A program made the position numbers and the translations under genes. The notes beneath the pieces are model-generated. The model was not told where the DNA came from and ran no database searches. It saw only the letters and a program-made list of their open reading frames with translations. A stretch of 47,019 nucleotides of DNA from Desulfuromonadales bacterium (GTDB lineage: Bacteria; Desulfobacterota; Desulfuromonadia; Desulfuromonadales; BM103): the NCBI GenBank assembly GCA_027065695.1, contig JAMONP010000017.1:1-47019 (forward strand), read 5' to 3'. Positions 37,754-47,019 of this stretch are shown in pieces; position 1 is the stretch's first letter, and every line of letters begins with the position of its first letter.

Positions 37754-38428
37754 TCAGTCATTATATTGGTGATCGATCAGCAGCTTGCTACCGGTGCGCT
37801 CTTGAACATAATCGAAACTGATCCCAGGGGCCAGTTCCACAATTTTAAAGCCACCAGAAGTAACATCGATGACAGCCAAATTTGTGTAGATCCGGCTTAC
37901 CACCGCCTTGCCGGTCAACGGATAACTACAGAACTCGAGCAGCTTTGGATCACCAGTTTTGGTACAGTGCTGAGTAATAACGTAGATCGTCTTGATCCCG
38001 GCAACCAGGTCCATCGCCCCGCCCACGGCCGGAATGTCATCAGGTTCACCGGTCGACCAGTTAGCCAAATCTCCTTGTTTGGAGACCTGCATTGCTCCAA
38101 GAACGCAGATATCAATATGGTGTCCGCGGATCATCGCAAAACTGTCGGCATGATGAAAAAAGCACGCACCAGGGATAGCCGTCACCGCTTTTTTACCTGC
38201 ATTAATCAAGTCAGGATCGCTATTCTCAGAAGTGGGAGCAGGTCCCATGCCTAGTAAGCCATTTTCAGTATGATAGATTACTTCACGTCCTTCAGGGACG
38301 TACTGTGCCACCATCTCGGGGATACCGATTCCCAGGTTGACATAGGAGCCATCTGGGATATCCAGAGCAGTCCGCTTAGCCATCTCTTCACGTCTCCAAC
38401 CCAACTGCAGGTTGTTAGATGTCAACAT
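37754..38428 (-). CDS. 3-oxoacid CoA-transferase subunit B (3-oxoadipate type)
   Basis: The 224-residue protein matches subunit B of family I CoA-transferases: YVNLGIGIPEMVAQYVP, the catalytic glutamate E55 in ENGLLGMGP, DLINAGKKAVT, FFHHADSFAMIRGHHIDI and GDLANWSTG. The last words and DIPAVGGAMDL resemble PcaJ, the 3-oxoadipate:succinyl-CoA transferase subunit, more closely than ScoB. It moves CoA to a 3-oxoacid through a glutamyl-CoA intermediate. Its ATG overlaps the end of subunit A by 7 bases, so translation is coupled. Subunit assignment is sure; the acid used is not. Confidence 0.9.
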   Translation of the reverse strand: MLTSNNLQLGWRREEMAKRTALDIPDGSYVNLGIGIPEMVAQYVPEGREVIYHTENGLLGMGPAPTSENSDPDLINAGKKAVTAIPGACFFHHADSFAMIRGHHIDICVLGAMQVSKQGDLANWSTGEPDDIPAVGGAMDLVAGIKTIYVITQHCTKTGDPKLLEFCSYPLTGKAVVSRIYTNLAVIDVTSGGFKIVELAPGISFDYVQERTGSKLLIDHQYND

Positions 38429-39135
38429 GGATAGCTCATCCCTTCTGCAATAAGTTTCGATTCTTGAACAGGATCAGATATGGCAATCACCCGGTCTACA
38501 AAAATTCCGGGAGTAACAACTATCTCCGGGTCGATGGTGTCAACTTCGACCAATGTGCCAGTCTGAACGATCGTTTTTGTCGCCGCCATAGCCATGATCG
38601 GCGCAAAGTTTCGTGCCGTTTTGTTGTATGTCAGGTTGCCATAGCGATCTGCACACTTGCACTTGATTAGTGCGAAGTCAGCTTTCAATCCGTATTCCAT
38701 AACATGGTTACGGCCATTGAAGTGGCGGTGCTCTTTACCTGCAGCGAGAGGTGTATCGACTGAGGTGGCGGTAAAAAAAGCCGGGATGCCGGCCCCTCCG
38801 GCACGGATACGCTCCGCCAGAGTTCCCTGAGGAACCAATTCCAGCTCTATTTTCCCGTTGCGATAGAGCTTTGGGAATACCTTGGATCCAAGAGTGCGCG
38901 GATAAGAGCAGATCATTTTACTGACCTGTCCATTTTCTATCAGGGCGGCCAAACCAACATGGCCACTGCCAGTATTGTTGTTAATCACGGTCAGATCTTT
39001 GGCTCTCACGTCAATCAGAGCATGAATCAGCTCAATGGGACTACCCGCTTCACCAAAGCCACCTATCATGATTGTTGCACCATCGAAGACATCTGCTACC
39101 GCGGCCGTAAGTGAATCTATGCGCTTGTCAATCAT
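38422..39135 (-). CDS. 3-oxoacid CoA-transferase subunit A (3-oxoadipate type)
   Basis: The 237-residue protein is subunit A of a family I CoA-transferase: ATIMIGGFGEAGSPIELI, LTVINNNTGSG, ELELVPQGTLAERIRAGGAGIPAFFT, ADFALIKCKCADRYGNLTY and ARNFAPIMAMAA. It resembles PcaI. It is the first gene of the operon A-B-aminotransferase-TAXI. No aromatic-ring degradation genes are in the window, so the usual beta-ketoadipate pathway role is not supported locally. The ATG is directly preceded by GAGG, an unusually tight spacing. A palindrome-rich region lies upstream. Confidence 0.9.
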   Translation of the reverse strand: MIDKRIDSLTAAVADVFDGATIMIGGFGEAGSPIELIHALIDVRAKDLTVINNNTGSGHVGLAALIENGQVSKMICSYPRTLGSKVFPKLYRNGKIELELVPQGTLAERIRAGGAGIPAFFTATSVDTPLAAGKEHRHFNGRNHVMEYGLKADFALIKCKCADRYGNLTYNKTARNFAPIMAMAATKTIVQTGTLVEVDTIDPEIVVTPGIFVDRVIAISDPVQESKLIAEGMSYPC

Positions 39136-40621: not shown

Positions 40622-41905
40622 TCAAAGGGTTTTGAACGCCTTGTTCGCCGCCTCAATAGTTTTGTCGAGATCTTCTAGCGAGTGGGCAATGCTCATAAAT
40701 CCGGTCTCGTATTGCGACGGAGCCAGGTTGATTCCTTCATCAAGCATGCACCGGAAGAATCTGGCAAAAATCTCTGGCGTCTCCGCTTTAACGTCACTGA
40801 AGTTACAGACTTCTTCTGCCTGGAAATAGGTGCAGAACATACCCCCCACCCGCTGTAGTGAGGTTGGTACCTTAGCTTCTGTGGCTGCCTCTTGCAGGCC
40901 CTTGCAGAGGTAGGCGCTCTTGTCTTCGATGCCCTCATAAAAGCCGTCTTGTTTGAGAAGCTGCAAGGTAGCGATACCGGCGCTCATGGCCAACGGGTTG
41001 CCGGACAGCGTGCCAGCCTGGTAGACGCCACCTTCGGGCGAGAGGTAGTCCATGATCTCCCGTTTGCCGCCAAAGGCACCAACTGGCAGACCACCGCCGA
41101 TGATTTTGCCGAGTGTGACCAGGTCGCCACGGACACCAAAGCGTTCCTGGGCACCGCCATAGGCAACCCGGAAGCCAGTCATGACTTCATCAATAATCAA
41201 CACGATTCCCTGGTCGTCGCAGAGTTGCCGCAAGCCTTCAAGAAACCCTGGTTTGGGTGCTACACAGCCCATATTGCCGGCAATTGGCTCAAGGATGATG
41301 CAGGCGATTTCGCCGGGACTGGCAGCCACCATTGCCTTGGTTTCCTCAAGATCATTGTAGGTGGCCGTCAGGGTGTGCTTGGCAAAATCGGCCGGGACGC
41401 CGGAGGAGGTTGGTACGCCGAAAGTTGCCAGGCCGCTGCCGGCTTTCACCAGCAGAGAGTCGGCATGACCGTGATAGCAACCGTCGAATTTCAGGATCTT
41501 GTCACGGCCGGTGTAGCCGCGCGCGAGACGGATCGCGCTCATGGTCGCTTCGGTGCCGGAGGAAACCATGCGGATTTTTTCAATGTTCGGATAAGCCTCA
41601 CAGACCATTTCAGCCAGCTGTGTTTCACGAACAGTAGGAGCACCGAAAGAGGCTCCGGTTGCAGCTGTCTGCTGGATCGCCTCTACGACCTTCGGGTGGC
41701 AATGACCGAGGATCATTGGTCCCCAGGAACCGACATAATCAATATAGGCGTTGTCGTCAACGTCGAAAACTTTCGAACCGGAAGCGCGGGCGATAAAGAT
41801 CGGATCGCAGCCAACGGATTTGAATGCGCGGACCGGGCTGTTAACGCCGCCCGGAATAACTTGTTTGGCTTTAGCAAAGAGGTCGGAAGATTGCTGATGC
41901 TTCAT
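40622..41905 (-). CDS. hemL: Glutamate-1-semialdehyde 2,1-aminomutase
   Basis: The 427-residue protein carries the HemL words [75 protein letters not shown] and the cofactor-lysine loop [17 protein letters not shown]. It makes 5-aminolevulinate from glutamate-1-semialdehyde in the C5 haem pathway. The length is standard. AAGGAG precedes the ATG. It is monocistronic here, convergent with the regulator gene and divergent from rnf. It is a distant paralogue of the aminotransferase at 36368. Confidence 0.96.
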
Positions 41906-42374: not shown

Positions 42375-42956
42375 ATGGCTGAACTATTACTCATTCTGGT
42401 AAGCGCCATTTTCGTCAACAACTTCGTGTTGGCGCGTTTCCTCGGTATCTGTCCGTTCCTGGGTGTTTCCAAGAAAGTGGAAACTGCTCTGGGAATGGGG
42501 ATGGCCGTGACTTTTGTCATGACTGTGGCCACGGTGGTGACTTGGTTTGTCCAGTACTTTGTTCTGATCCCCTTCGGTATCGAATATCTGCAGACGATTG
42601 CTTTTATCCTGGTGATCGCTTCACTGGTACAGCTGGTGGAAATGGTGATCCAGAAGGTAAGCCCGGTGCTCTATCAGTCGCTGGGGATTTTCCTGCCACT
42701 GATTACGACCAACTGTGCGGTTCTTGGCCTGGCAGTTCTCAATATCCAGAAGGATTACACTTTTCTGGAGGGGGTTGTATTTGCCATTGGTGCTGCGCTC
42801 GGCTTTACCCTGGCTCTGGTTCTTTTTGCCGGTTTGCGTGAACGACTTGAACTCAGTGCGGTGCCGCAGAGTTTTCGTGGTACCGCAATCGCCCTGGTGA
42901 CGGCTGGTCTGTTGTCGCTTGCCTTTATGGGTTTTGCCGGAATGGTTAAAGGATGA
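42375..42956 (+). CDS. rnfA: Rnf electron transport complex subunit A
   Basis: The 193-residue integral membrane protein has six hydrophobic helices and the RnfA/NqrE words [35 protein letters not shown] cut by helices, [13 protein letters not shown] and [12 protein letters not shown]. The two half-channel cysteines in ICPF and TNCAV are present; in the complex they bind an intramembrane iron-sulfur cluster with RnfE. It opens the rnfABCDG operon behind a consensus promoter; rnfB follows after 10 bases. AGGTAGGG precedes the ATG. Confidence 0.96.
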
Positions 42957-42966
42957 TGGTTGACTT

Positions 42967-43809
42967 ATGCTCGCGTCTATACTGAGCCTTGGCGGTATCG
43001 GCCTGTTTGCTGCCGTTACACTTGGCTTTGCTGCTAAAAAGTTTGCCGTTGAAGTCGATCCACGTGAGATGGCTGCCCTTGAGGTCCTGCCTGGGGCCAA
43101 TTGCGGTGCCTGTGGCTTCCCTGGTTGCGCCGGTTATGCCAAGGCCCTGGTGGCTGGCACGATTGACTTAAACCAGTGCCCTCCGGGTGGGGCCGATGTC
43201 GTGACGAAATTGGCTCATATCCTCGGTGTCGAGGCCTCGGCAACCGCCCGGCAGATTGCTGTGGTCCTCTGCCAGGGTGATAACCGTAAGGCGCAGCTCA
43301 AGTACCGTTACCTGGGGTTGGAGGACTGCACAGCGGCACAACGTATTGCCGATGGCCCGAAAACCTGCCCAGGAGGTTGTCTGGGCCTCGGTTCCTGTCA
43401 GCGAATCTGTCCCTTTGATGCCATTGAAATGACTGCTGATGGCCTGGCAGTCATCAGTCGTGAGAACTGCACCGGCTGTCGCAAATGTGTTGCCGTTTGT
43501 CCACGCGATGTCATCCACATGACACCCTATGAGTCCGGGGTCCATGTACTTTGTAATAGTCATGACAAAGGTGCCGTAGTGCGCAAGTATTGCCAGGTTG
43601 GTTGTATCGGTTGCAACATCTGCAAAAAAACAGTTCCTGACTCCTATAAAATAGAGAATTTCCTTGCTGAAGTTATTTACGAGCAAGATACCGAGGCGGG
43701 CGAGGCGATTGCCAAATGTCCGACTAAATGCATCATGGATTTTAACGTGGGGTATCCGGATGGCAGCAGCTACTTGCCTGCTGTTGCAGACAAACCGCAT
43801 GCGGCCTGA
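42967..43809 (+). CDS. rnfB: Rnf complex iron-sulfur subunit B
   Basis: The 280-residue protein has one N-terminal membrane helix (about 2-20), the four-Cys domain NCGACGFPGCAGYA with a further C near residue 67, and then several ferredoxin-type motifs (CLGLGSCQRICPFDAI, CTGCRKCVAVCP, CIGCNICKKTVP, CPTKCIM). RnfB takes electrons from reduced ferredoxin and passes them into the membrane complex. The third and fourth ferredoxin motifs are split by an insertion, as in other deltaproteobacterial RnfB. It lies between rnfA and rnfC. Confidence 0.95.
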   Translation: MLASILSLGGIGLFAAVTLGFAAKKFAVEVDPREMAALEVLPGANCGACGFPGCAGYAKALVAGTIDLNQCPPGGADVVTKLAHILGVEASATARQIAVVLCQGDNRKAQLKYRYLGLEDCTAAQRIADGPKTCPGGCLGLGSCQRICPFDAIEMTADGLAVISRENCTGCRKCVAVCPRDVIHMTPYESGVHVLCNSHDKGAVVRKYCQVGCIGCNICKKTVPDSYKIENFLAEVIYEQDTEAGEAIAKCPTKCIMDFNVGYPDGSSYLPAVADKPHAA

Positions 43810-43837: not shown

Positions 43838-45154
43838 ATGAAACTGAAAACTTTCACAGGTGGTATTCATCCTCCGGACAATAAGCAGTGGTCGTCGCAC
43901 AAGGCGATCGAAAACTGTCCATTGCCTGCAGAGTTTATTGTGCCCCTGGCCCAGCATATCGGTGCGCCGTCTGTTGCGTGCGTGGAGGTTGGCCAGCATG
44001 TGGCCAAGGGGCAGGAGATCGGCTCAGCCAAAGGTTTTGTCTCCGTGCCGGTGCATGCGCCAACATCAGGCGAGATCGTTGCCGTCGAGAGTCGCCCTCA
44101 TCCCTGGGGGACAGCACTTCCGGCAGTCGTGATCAAACCGGATGGTGAGGATCGTTGGTCGGCAGAGTTGCAGCCTGCTGATCCGAGTGACTTGTCAGTC
44201 GATGACATGGTTGAGAAAGTTCGCCAGGCCGGTGTAGTTGGTATGGGCGGTGCGGCCTTCCCGGCGCATGTCAAAATGTCACCGCCGCCAGAAAAGAAAA
44301 TCCGTACTCTGATTTTCAATGGTGTCGAGTGTGAGCCCTACCTGACCGCAGATCATCGTATGATGCTCGAAGAGCCGGAACGTATTCTGCGGGGCGTTGC
44401 CCTGTTGCAATATGTGTTTGGAGCTGAGCGCGTTGTCATTGGTGTTGAAGCGAATAAGCCGGATGTGATTGATCTTTTGGAGAAGGAGTGTGCCGGGACA
44501 CCTGTTGAGATCATGGCTCTGCAAGTCAAGTATCCGCAGGGTGCTGAAAAACAACTGATCGCTGCGGTGACCGGGGGCGAAGTCCCATCGGGGGGCTTGC
44601 CGATGGATATCGGTGTTGCGGTGCACAATGTTGCAACGGCTGCTGCGGTGACTGATGCAGTCATCCATGGTCGACCGCTGATTGAACGTATCTGCACAGT
44701 GACAGGCCCCGCAATTCGTGAACCGAAGAATCTGAGAATACGCATCGGTACACCGCTCTCCCACCTGGTGGACGTCTGCGGTGGGCTGGTCGAGGAACCG
44801 GGTAAAATTATCCTCGGTGGTCCGATGATGGGTTTTACTCAGCTTGGTTTCGATGTGCCGAGCACTCGGGGAACCTCCGGCCTGCTCTTGTTGCGCTCTG
44901 AAGATGTTGCCGCGCAGCCGGAAGGGCCTTGTATCCGCTGCGCACGCTGTGTGCAGGCTTGTCCGATACATCTCCTGCCGGCCACTATTGCTGCATACGC
45001 TCGTCGGGATCTGCTGGCAGAAACAGAAGAATATTGTGCCATGGACTGCATCGAATGCGGTAGCTGCAGCTACGTCTGTCCGGCGGCGATCCCGCTGGTG
45101 CAGGCAATTCGTTATGGCAAGGCAGCCATACTCGCCAAGAAAAGGAACTCTTAA
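43838..45154 (+). CDS. rnfC: Rnf complex NADH-binding subunit C
   Basis: The 438-residue protein shows the RnfC layout: an N-terminal barrel-sandwich part (FTGGIHPPDNKQWS, GFVSVPVHAPTSGEIVAVE), the flavin/NADH-binding domain homologous to complex I 51-kDa subunit (GVVGMGGAAFPAHVKM, FNGVECEPYLTADHRMM), and two 4Fe-4S motifs near the end (CIRCARCVQACP and CIECGSCSYVCP). It exchanges electrons with NAD+/NADH on the cytoplasmic side. It lacks the long repetitive C-terminal extension of E. coli RsxC. rnfD starts 5 bases downstream. Confidence 0.96.
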   Translation: MKLKTFTGGIHPPDNKQWSSHKAIENCPLPAEFIVPLAQHIGAPSVACVEVGQHVAKGQEIGSAKGFVSVPVHAPTSGEIVAVESRPHPWGTALPAVVIKPDGEDRWSAELQPADPSDLSVDDMVEKVRQAGVVGMGGAAFPAHVKMSPPPEKKIRTLIFNGVECEPYLTADHRMMLEEPERILRGVALLQYVFGAERVVIGVEANKPDVIDLLEKECAGTPVEIMALQVKYPQGAEKQLIAAVTGGEVPSGGLPMDIGVAVHNVATAAAVTDAVIHGRPLIERICTVTGPAIREPKNLRIRIGTPLSHLVDVCGGLVEEPGKIILGGPMMGFTQLGFDVPSTRGTSGLLLLRSEDVAAQPEGPCIRCARCVQACPIHLLPATIAAYARRDLLAETEEYCAMDCIECGSCSYVCPAAIPLVQAIRYGKAAILAKKRNS

Positions 45155-45159
45155 GTAAA

Positions 45160-46155
45160 GTGAGTCAGCAACTCTACCTGTCATCCTCGCCGCATATTCA
45201 TTCAGGCGAAACCACCACCAAGGTGATGCACGCAGTGTTTTACAGCCTGCTGCCGGCCTGTGGTGTAGCGGTCTACTTTTTCGGCCCATCGGCCCTGACC
45301 GTTTTGTTGATTGCGACTCTCGGCTGCCTTGCGACTGAAGCTGTCTGCCAGCGCCTGATGGGGCAACCCGTGACCATTGTCGACGGCAGCGCTGCAATCA
45401 CTGGTGTTCTGCTGGCGCTCAATCTGCCGCCGACCAGCCCCTGGTGGCTGACTCTGCTGGGGTCGGTGATTGCTATTGCAATCGGTAAACAGGTTTACGG
45501 TGGCTTGGGCTCGAATCCTTTTAACCCGGCTCTGGTGGCCAGGGTTGTGCTGCTCATCTCTTTCCCCGTGCAAATGACGACCTGGTCGGTACCGGCACCT
45601 CTCGGTACCGGCCTTGACCTGGTTACAACTGCTACCCCGCTGGGTGAGTGGAAAAACGCGGTCATGCTGACCGGAAAAATGCCCGTCGATATGCAAGGCA
45701 GCATGTCAGAGTATTTCTTCGGCAATATGGCCGGCTCCATCGGCGAGATTTCTGCGTTGGCACTTCTGCTGGGGGCGGCCTATCTTTTCTACAAACGGAT
45801 TCTGACCTGGCATATTCCTGTGGCTTTTATCGGCACCGTGGTTCTGCTGTCGGGGTTATTCTGGTTAGTAAATCCGGGGAAATATCCAGATCCGGTTTTC
45901 CATTTGTTGACCGGCGGCCTGATCCTCGGCGCTTTCTTTATGGCAACGGACATGGTTACTTCACCGGTTTCTGTTAAGGGAATGTTGTTGTTCGGAACAG
46001 GTTGTGGTTTGCTGACTGTGCTGATCCGACTGTTCGGCGGTTATCCTGAAGGGGTCTCTTTCGCTATTCTGCTTATGAACGCCGCGACGCCGTTGATTGA
46101 TCGTTACACCCGGCCAAAGACGTTTGGTGCTTTAAGCCAGAGGGGGACGCAATGA
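45160..46155 (+). CDS. rnfD: Rnf complex membrane flavoprotein subunit D
   Basis: The 331-residue protein has about nine to ten membrane helices and the family words HSGETTTKVMHAVFYSLLPA, GGLGSNPFNPALVARV and GAFFMATDMVTSPVS. The ApbE flavinylation motif D153-LVTTA-T159 is present, so T159 should carry covalent FMN. It forms part of the ion path with RnfG. The start is GTG at 45160 with AAGGA upstream. Its stop overlaps the rnfG start as ATGA. Confidence 0.95.
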   Translation: MSQQLYLSSSPHIHSGETTTKVMHAVFYSLLPACGVAVYFFGPSALTVLLIATLGCLATEAVCQRLMGQPVTIVDGSAAITGVLLALNLPPTSPWWLTLLGSVIAIAIGKQVYGGLGSNPFNPALVARVVLLISFPVQMTTWSVPAPLGTGLDLVTTATPLGEWKNAVMLTGKMPVDMQGSMSEYFFGNMAGSIGEISALALLLGAAYLFYKRILTWHIPVAFIGTVVLLSGLFWLVNPGKYPDPVFHLLTGGLILGAFFMATDMVTSPVSVKGMLLFGTGCGLLTVLIRLFGGYPEGVSFAILLMNAATPLIDRYTRPKTFGALSQRGTQ

Positions 46156-47019
46156 ATAGTATGCCGCGTCTCATACTGGTGTTGACCCTGATCACTGCTG
46201 GCGCCGGTCTGATTCTCTCTCTGGTCGAAACGGTCACTCGTGAACCGATTGCAGAACAGCGTCGTCTGGAAACCCTGCGAGCTTTGCAGGCGGTAATGCC
46301 GCCAGCTGACAATGCTCCTGACGAAGATACTGTACAGTTATTGACTGGTCAGGACAAACGTGGCCGCGATAAGTACAGAGTTTTTTTCCGTGGACGTAAG
46401 GGCAGCGAACTGAGTGGGGTTGCCTTTAAGGTGATTGCGCCTGATGGTTATAGTGGCAATATCAGCGTGATGGTGGGTGTTGATGCCAAAGGAACTGTTA
46501 CCGGGATTGAAATCCTGAGTCACATGGAAACGCCTGGGCTGGGCGATAAAATAGTTCTTCCCGCTTTCAAAGATGTTTTTGTAGGCAAGAATCTAGATAA
46601 TGCTGACTGGCGGGTAAAAAAAGATGGTGGCGAGTTCGACCAGATTACCGGTGCGACAATTTCTCCGCGAGCCGTGGTTGGTGCTGTGCGCAAGGGCCTG
46701 GAATTCTTCCGTGACCATAGGATCGAGATCCTTGCCGAAACAAAGGCTAAGGCTAAAACAAAGGCTAAGGCTGAAACAAAGGTTAAGGCTGAAACAAAGG
46801 CTAAGGCTGAAACAAAGGCTAAGGCTGAAACAAAGGCTAAGGCTGAAACAAAGGCTAAGGCTGAAACAAAGGTTAAGGCTGAAACAAAGGCTAAGGCTGA
46901 AACAAAGGCTAAGGCTGAAACAAAGGCTAAGGCTGAAACAAAGGCTAAGGCTGAAACAAAGGCTAAGGCTGAAACAAAGGCTAAGGCTGAAACAAAGGCT
47001 AAGGCTGAAACAAAGGTTA
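46152..47019 (+). CDS. rnfG: Rnf complex FMN-binding subunit G, C-terminus repetitive and cut by the window end
   Basis: At least 289 residues are visible. One N-terminal membrane helix (about 5-25) anchors a periplasmic FMN-binding domain (about 80-190) with HMETPGLGDKI and the flavinylation motif D163-QITGA-T169, so T169 should hold covalent FMN. From residue 195 the frame enters a tandem repeat of AETKAK and runs to the edge with no stop. Ordinary RnfG ends near residue 190-210, so the repeat is an unusual extension. The start overlaps the rnfD stop. rnfE is expected next but is outside the window. Confidence 0.93.
   Translation, partial: MNSMPRLILVLTLITAGAGLILSLVETVTREPIAEQRRLETLRALQAVMPPADNAPDEDTVQLLTGQDKRGRDKYRVFFRGRKGSELSGVAFKVIAPDGYSGNISVMVGVDAKGTVTGIEILSHMETPGLGDKIVLPAFKDVFVGKNLDNADWRVKKDGGEFDQITGATISPRAVVGAVRKGLEFFRDHRIEILAETKAKAKTKAKAETKVKAETKAKAETKAKAETKAKAETKAKAETKVKAETKAKAETKAKAETKAKAETKAKAETKAKAETKAKAETKAKAETKV
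46734..47019 (+). repeat. 18-bp coding tandem repeat in rnfG
   Basis: The unit GCTGAAACAAAGGCTAAG is repeated head to tail, 15 full copies and a 16th cut by the window end, all in frame (AETKAK). Unit 1 begins GCC, unit 2 has AAA for GAA, and units 3, 8 and 16 carry GTT for GCT (valine). Otherwise the copies are identical at the DNA level, which indicates recent expansion. The window ends inside it, as an assembly would break at such a repeat. Confidence 0.95.

Follow-up and report, generated by a model that had tools for sequence, protein, structure and literature searches.

The window analysed here comprises the entire contig C17 (47,019 bases) from an assembly of 108 contigs and 3.39 Mb (99.95% complete, 1.2% contamination). 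Its last part carries, all on the forward strand, rnfA (42375-42956; TIGR01943, 296.6 bits, cut-off 229.3), rnfB (42967-43809; TIGR01944, 114.8 bits, cut-off 68.7), rnfC (43838-45154; TIGR01945, 438 amino acids, 575 bits), rnfD (45160-46155; TIGR01946, 380.6 bits, cut-off 207.05) and the core of rnfG (46152-46736), and as rnfE lies directly after the rnfG stop codon on a second contig, C60, the placement in an rnfABCDGE operon holds. The RnfG core, which scored 170.8 bits with TIGR01947 (cut-off 102) and 78.6 bits with PF04205, consists of an N-terminal helix and an FMN domain with the flavin motif TGATIS, which includes Thr169. From position 46737 onwards rnfG continues into an array of 18-bp repeats.

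An AlphaFold2 (AF2) model based on a 26-sequence alignment (mean pLDDT 89.5, pTM 0.67) has the RnfG fold with an N-terminal helix predicted at residues 3-48, a break at residues 195-198 and then one single helix spanning residues 199-287. The core of the model matches the solved Azotobacter vinelandii RnfG (8ahx_G) with a Z score of 20.0 (188 aligned residues, rmsd 4.4, 39% identity). The FMN domain and the flavin motif are intact; G167, A168 and T169 of the motif are invariant in the 26 aligned sequences, and ApbE is present in the same genome (contig C98, 279 bits). By analogy with T225 of Vibrio cholerae NqrC, Thr169 would be the flavin acceptor position (PMC12174285). The same paper describes RnfG and NqrC as proteins with a single helix in the membrane and an FMN domain that is periplasmic or extracellular, on which description our assignment of RnfG to the periplasmic side is based. 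It also describes electron shuttling by a 25-30 degrees rotation of the FMN domain, as shown in NQR and proposed for RNF. PMC3543383 deals with the energetics of Rnf in Pelobacter and not with tails.

An in-frame 18-bp array extends rnfG

Tandem Repeats Finder (TRF), run at its default threshold (score 50), detected one array in the whole window, at 46737-47016 (period 18, 15.6 copies, 97% matches, no indels, score 539). Read unit by unit, the array occupies 46737-47019 on the forward strand with 15 whole units (46737-47006) followed by a 13-bp partial unit (47007-47019), where the contig end cuts it. The open reading frame from 46152 passes through the array in the rnfG frame and off the contig end, in agreement with the sequence-only reading of this DNA, according to which at least 15 near-identical in-frame copies had been added to the FMN subunit of Rnf. 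Among the 15 whole units, 12 encode ETKAKA, two ETKVKA and one KTKAKA. The GCT-to-GTT change, which had been ascribed to three units, was indeed found in those at 46773-46790 and 46863-46880 and in the partial unit that forms the final bases of the contig (47007-47019), while a GAA-to-AAA change (E to K) in the unit at 46755-46772 had not been mentioned.

We searched the genome for the unit pattern, allowing at most two mismatches, and obtained 20 forward and no reverse matches, all of which are on C17 or at the start of C60 (control with the pattern read backwards: none in either orientation). With no match elsewhere at this threshold, unit copies in other parts of the genome were rejected as a source of the array. 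The far end of the array, C60:1-134, consists of eight bases of a unit and then seven whole units (two KTKAKA, three ETKVKA and two ETKAKA), after which GAAGGAGACAAGCCATGA encodes EGDKP and a stop. This stop overlaps the start of rnfE (ATGA; C60:149-742, 287.4 bits with the rnfE model), and in comparisons with six genus relatives the encoded RnfE is identical at 163-184 of its 197 residues, for which reason we regard C60 as the continuation of the C17 array. Both a stop and rnfE, proposed as something to look for behind the repeats, are thus present.

A direct overlap between C17 and C60 was considered and rejected, as none is exact and the near overlaps (21 and 57 bases) have two mismatches. 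For this reason we claim a minimum length and no total: 22 whole units and a further 21 bases of incomplete ones without overlap, or approximately 20 units if the imperfect 57-bp overlap were real. Provided that C17 and C60 share no sequence at their ends and the reading frame continues from one to the other, the tail amounts to about 143 residues, 94 in the window and 49 on C60.

Contig breaks of this type normally arise from arrays that are too long to resolve. It is conceivable, nevertheless, that the true array is short and that the assembler inflated or scrambled it at the ends of both contigs, given that the break falls inside the array, that the order of units is unreliable in repeats exceeding the read length and that assembly errors have been attributed to tandem repeats (PMC6868369). 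We give this explanation little chance: each of the two contigs has one unique flank, they differ in unit order and lack an exact suffix-prefix overlap, and even the best near overlap leaves about 20 units. The existence of a second contig with the other end of the array argues against a pure assembly artefact and largely, although not wholly, removes the caution expressed in the sequence-only reading.

Recent growth of the array

The 22 whole units belong to three types (14, 5 and 3 units) that vary at positions 1 and 11 only; the other 16 of the 18 positions, silent third positions included, are invariant. Both variable positions represent transitions that change the amino acid, and there is no silent and no frame-breaking change. 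Because only two of 18 positions vary and silent changes are absent the array appears to be young, and the pattern points to very recent growth or homogenisation, which is what had been suggested from the near-identity of the copies. In an array of this youth, a set of variants that all change the amino acid, with none silent or frame-breaking, is not clearly explained by either drift or selection. A few codons at the free C-terminal end were probably enlarged by slippage or by recombination of repeats in unequal register. Duplication of blocks of units, for which the recurring GTT change had been taken as a hint, is plausible insofar as the GTT and the AAA variant each occur more than once and both C17 and C60 contain a K unit with a GTT unit behind it, but the order of units in an assembled repeat is unreliable.

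The insertion site in genus relatives

The array is located between the LAE codons, with which the conserved FMN domain ends, and the last four codons, GDKP, which also contain the GGAG ribosome site and the overlapping rnfE start. RnfG was matched in nine of the 11 genomes of the genus, that of the window included; there was no RnfG match in the other two (G009 and G010; the two are 82% and 87% complete). The eight relatives match the full 195-residue RnfG core at 70-84% identity and the long tail is absent from all of them, six ending 6-7 residues past the point where the array starts and L046 and L050 being just as short. The site without an array is seen most clearly in LAEAKGEKP (G004) and LAENQGDKP (G014, from another genus of the family), as compared to LAE-[TKAKAE]n-GDKP here. 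One of the genus relatives has, in addition, a second RnfG-like reading (L023/L026; G002:C338:3927-4385) in which the parts that match query residues 1-83 and 126-195 directly adjoin, as if 42 codons had been lost in frame.

Because the units are 18 bp long, and because rnfE depends on the same stop, the frame would be kept, such that RnfG would end at the same stop and rnfE would still be translatable by coupling. The array might be thought to act at the RNA level, e.g. by setting the translation of the coupled rnfE, as the rnfE GGAG site follows it directly and the start codon of rnfE overlaps with the stop of rnfG. However, the stop/start overlap is of the same kind in the relatives without repeats, and stops in every unit close the rnfE frame, which precludes a longer RnfE from an upstream start; we see hardly any likelihood in an effect of this kind.

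RnfG tails in other bacteria

For comparison of tail lengths, RnfG-like proteins were gathered from several samples. In the order, 112 of 136 genomes gave a match, 82 of these (including the window's own) over the cut-off, and the best RnfG of the other 81 was read together with three weak ones. The phylum sample gave matches in 147 of 395 genomes, 114 over the cut-off and some shared with the order set, and 20 places with large open frames were read, including G281 (101.5 bits) and G295 (88.1 bits), which score below the cut-off. In the class of an Aliivibrio genome (236 of 369 genomes matched, 212 over the cut-off) we read 34 places with open frames of at least 250, among the matches listed. 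With 80 of 315 named-record loci added, the survey comprised 220 loci, and after L112, L113, L114, L208, L210 and L232, which are without the flavin motif, had been dropped and duplicates merged, 168 distinct proteins with the motif remained; some of these are weak relatives below the cut-off, the phylum and class samples are biased to long frames, and large groups such as Firmicutes, Bacteroidota and archaea lie outside the survey.

Counted from GAT of the flavin motif to the stop, these 168 other RnfG-like proteins have a median of 35 and a maximum of 79 residues versus 172 here (123 in the window and 49 on C60), which supports the view that such a tail is unusual for RnfG. No K/A/E repeat was found among the 15 longest of the other tails. 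The two longest, L218 (G686:C31) and L245 (G681:C27) with 79 and 74 residues, have an acidic or proline-rich composition, and TRF gave no repeats in them. Many of the large open frames (up to 750 codons) were discarded since they are open upstream of the gene and do not represent tails, and the short repeats of two copies that TRF reported for some further tails at a low threshold (e.g. L213, 15 bp x 2.0, score 46; L248, 9 bp x 2.0, score 36) were taken as chance.

Two of the surveyed tails resemble the present one in having in-frame 18-bp units right before the RnfG stop. These are L098 (G069:C106), of PAPQVV type with 3.6 copies of 18 bp (89% matches) just before the stop, and L211 (G281:C19), of AAVAVP type with 3.8 copies of 18 bp (82% matches, 10% indels) or, as alternatively scored, 3.0 copies of 21 bp; the L211 protein, at 101.5 bits, is 0.5 bits below the rnfG cut-off of 102. 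In contrast to the present array, their units are built from proline, alanine and valine and number fewer than four, and since the unit sequences differ the repeats presumably originated independently. The C-terminal site of RnfG thus appears to be permissive, although two cases are too few for a rule about 18 bp.

Predicted structure and charge of the tail

The predicted tail helix has a block pLDDT of 75 for residues 201-210 and of 86-91 for the ten-residue blocks between 211 and 270, followed by blocks with 80 and 63. AF2 readily calls simple A/K/E repeats helical, and we therefore consider the helix as a predicted tendency. Hence, of the lysine-, alanine- and glutamate-rich helical tail that had been proposed, the composition is borne out, and the helix is so as an AF2 prediction. 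The net charge of the summed tail (94 + 49 residues) is approximately +28. Within the 94 residues encoded in the window there are 14 E-K and 14 K-E pairs at i+4 and none at i+3. In single alpha-helix (SAH) segments opposite charges are spaced at i to i+4 along a long helix, and the tail has this charge spacing over a helix (199-287) that is predicted by AF2. The product would accordingly be an RnfG with some 143 or more extra periplasmic residues in a predicted straight cationic helix, and if helical throughout, 143 residues at 0.15 nm each correspond to about 21 nm. We disregarded the fold matches obtained with the tail by itself (Z under 6), which are hardly informative in the case of a bare helix, and also its NCBIfam hits to EntB, EntC, a serine-rich family and tolA, all of which are far under their cut-offs and reflect composition only.

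Comparison with repeats in TolA and RnfC

One of the two closest precedents is Escherichia coli tolA, where a lysine/alanine-rich 15/18-bp intragenic repeat encodes a long periplasmic helix of an inner-membrane protein (PMC3477136). According to that report, the repeat (13 imperfect units) is part of domain II and connects two further domains, its copy number ranges between 8 and 16 among 234 isolates and alters stress tolerance, and its contraction is RecA-dependent and occurs at 6.9e-5. The rnfG array shares with tolA the in-frame 18-bp lysine/alanine-rich units and a periplasmic helix, which here is predicted only, and it differs in that it forms a terminal tail, that its units are nearly identical and that it was read in one genome. 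Homology to TolA was rejected (TIGR02794, tolA_full; 19 bits against a cut-off of 59.45, with a match to the repeat region 196-286 only). We use tolA, by analogy, to illustrate what a periplasmic repeat of this type can do, and not as an indication that the rnfG array does so.

The other close precedent is found on another Rnf subunit, RnfC (RsxC), which may carry tails rich in K/A/E. In nine of ten loci with gamma- or betaproteobacterial titles (L184, L185, L187, L188 and L190-L194; no RnfC part was found in L189) RnfC continues for 130-399 residues past the last Fe-S motif with a K/A/E fraction of 0.33-0.54, and six of these loci (L184, L185, L188, L191, L192 and L194) show, on visual inspection, plain repeats of the AAIARAKAKK type. 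RnfC of a Magnetococcales locus has 108 such residues after the last Fe-S motif. By contrast, the RnfC proteins of three Desulfuromonadales (the window, L115 and L121) end 23, 23 and 26 residues past this motif and have no K/A-rich repeat tail. While the RnfC tails resemble the present one as K/A/E-rich C-termini on an Rnf subunit, they are carried by a different subunit, are found on the cytoplasmic side of the membrane and consist of longer and more diverged units. The structures of A. vinelandii RnfG (8ahx) and of other Rnf/NqrC proteins share the core fold and the flavin motif and lack a long tail, the four sequence-matched Rnf chains ending 4-13 residues past the last residue of the match. 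A K/A/E-rich tail on an Rnf subunit is thus not new as such; what is new is the other subunit, the other side of the membrane and a very young array. We know of no RnfG with a long tail built from repeats, and no report of a repeat tail on RnfG was found in the literature searched (open-licence papers only).

Possible roles of the tail

Taken together, we favour as the likely reading that rnfG carries a recently expanded in-frame 18-bp minisatellite whose product is an extension that can vary in length, is tolerated because the C-terminus is permissive and affects Rnf mildly at most. Both the variability in length and the tolerance are what we infer, the comparison including one genome of the species. 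The C-terminus of RnfG is on the swinging FMN domain, where a long tail would then be tolerated, and the array is probably an incidental case of a known route by which genes change length.

Alternatively, the tail could be a selected periplasmic spacer or anchor, i.e. a single cationic helix of approximately 21 nm that attaches to peptidoglycan, to the outer membrane or to an acidic redox protein in the periplasm and in this way holds the swinging FMN domain in position or limits its movement. Selection for the product could be reflected in the net charge and in a composition cleanly suited to helix formation, and the long confident AF2 helix with its charge of +28 agrees with such a role, although AF2 readily calls A/K/E repeats helical, as discussed above. 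The location of RnfG on the periplasmic side and the rotation of the domain in NQR, proposed also in RNF (PMC12174285), as well as the known effects of repeat number in tolA (PMC3477136), are likewise in its favour. The tail is, however, missing from the eight genus relatives with a full RnfG and from the 168 other RnfG-like proteins, and we regard a selected spacer or anchor as unlikely. A bolder version, in which the tail acts as a length-tunable periplasmic arm on the swinging Rnf domain, sufficiently long to span much of the periplasm, that docks to peptidoglycan or a periplasmic cytochrome, thereby changing Rnf coupling or opening an outward exit for electrons, with copy number as a fast evolutionary dial, has in our judgement very little chance of being correct.

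The array places a predicted tolA-like helix on a moving part of a respiratory ion pump. If the copy number varies between isolates, these would form a natural length series to test whether the RnfG swing tolerates or uses the load. Moreover, the insertion site suggests that repeats can arise repeatedly in the codons immediately ahead of a coupled start codon, which would offer them a free site. Elsewhere in the window, the reverse-strand segments 40622-41905 and 37754-39135 carry what we take, from their appearance, to be genes for glutamate-1-semialdehyde aminotransferase (hemL) and two CoA-transferase subunits.
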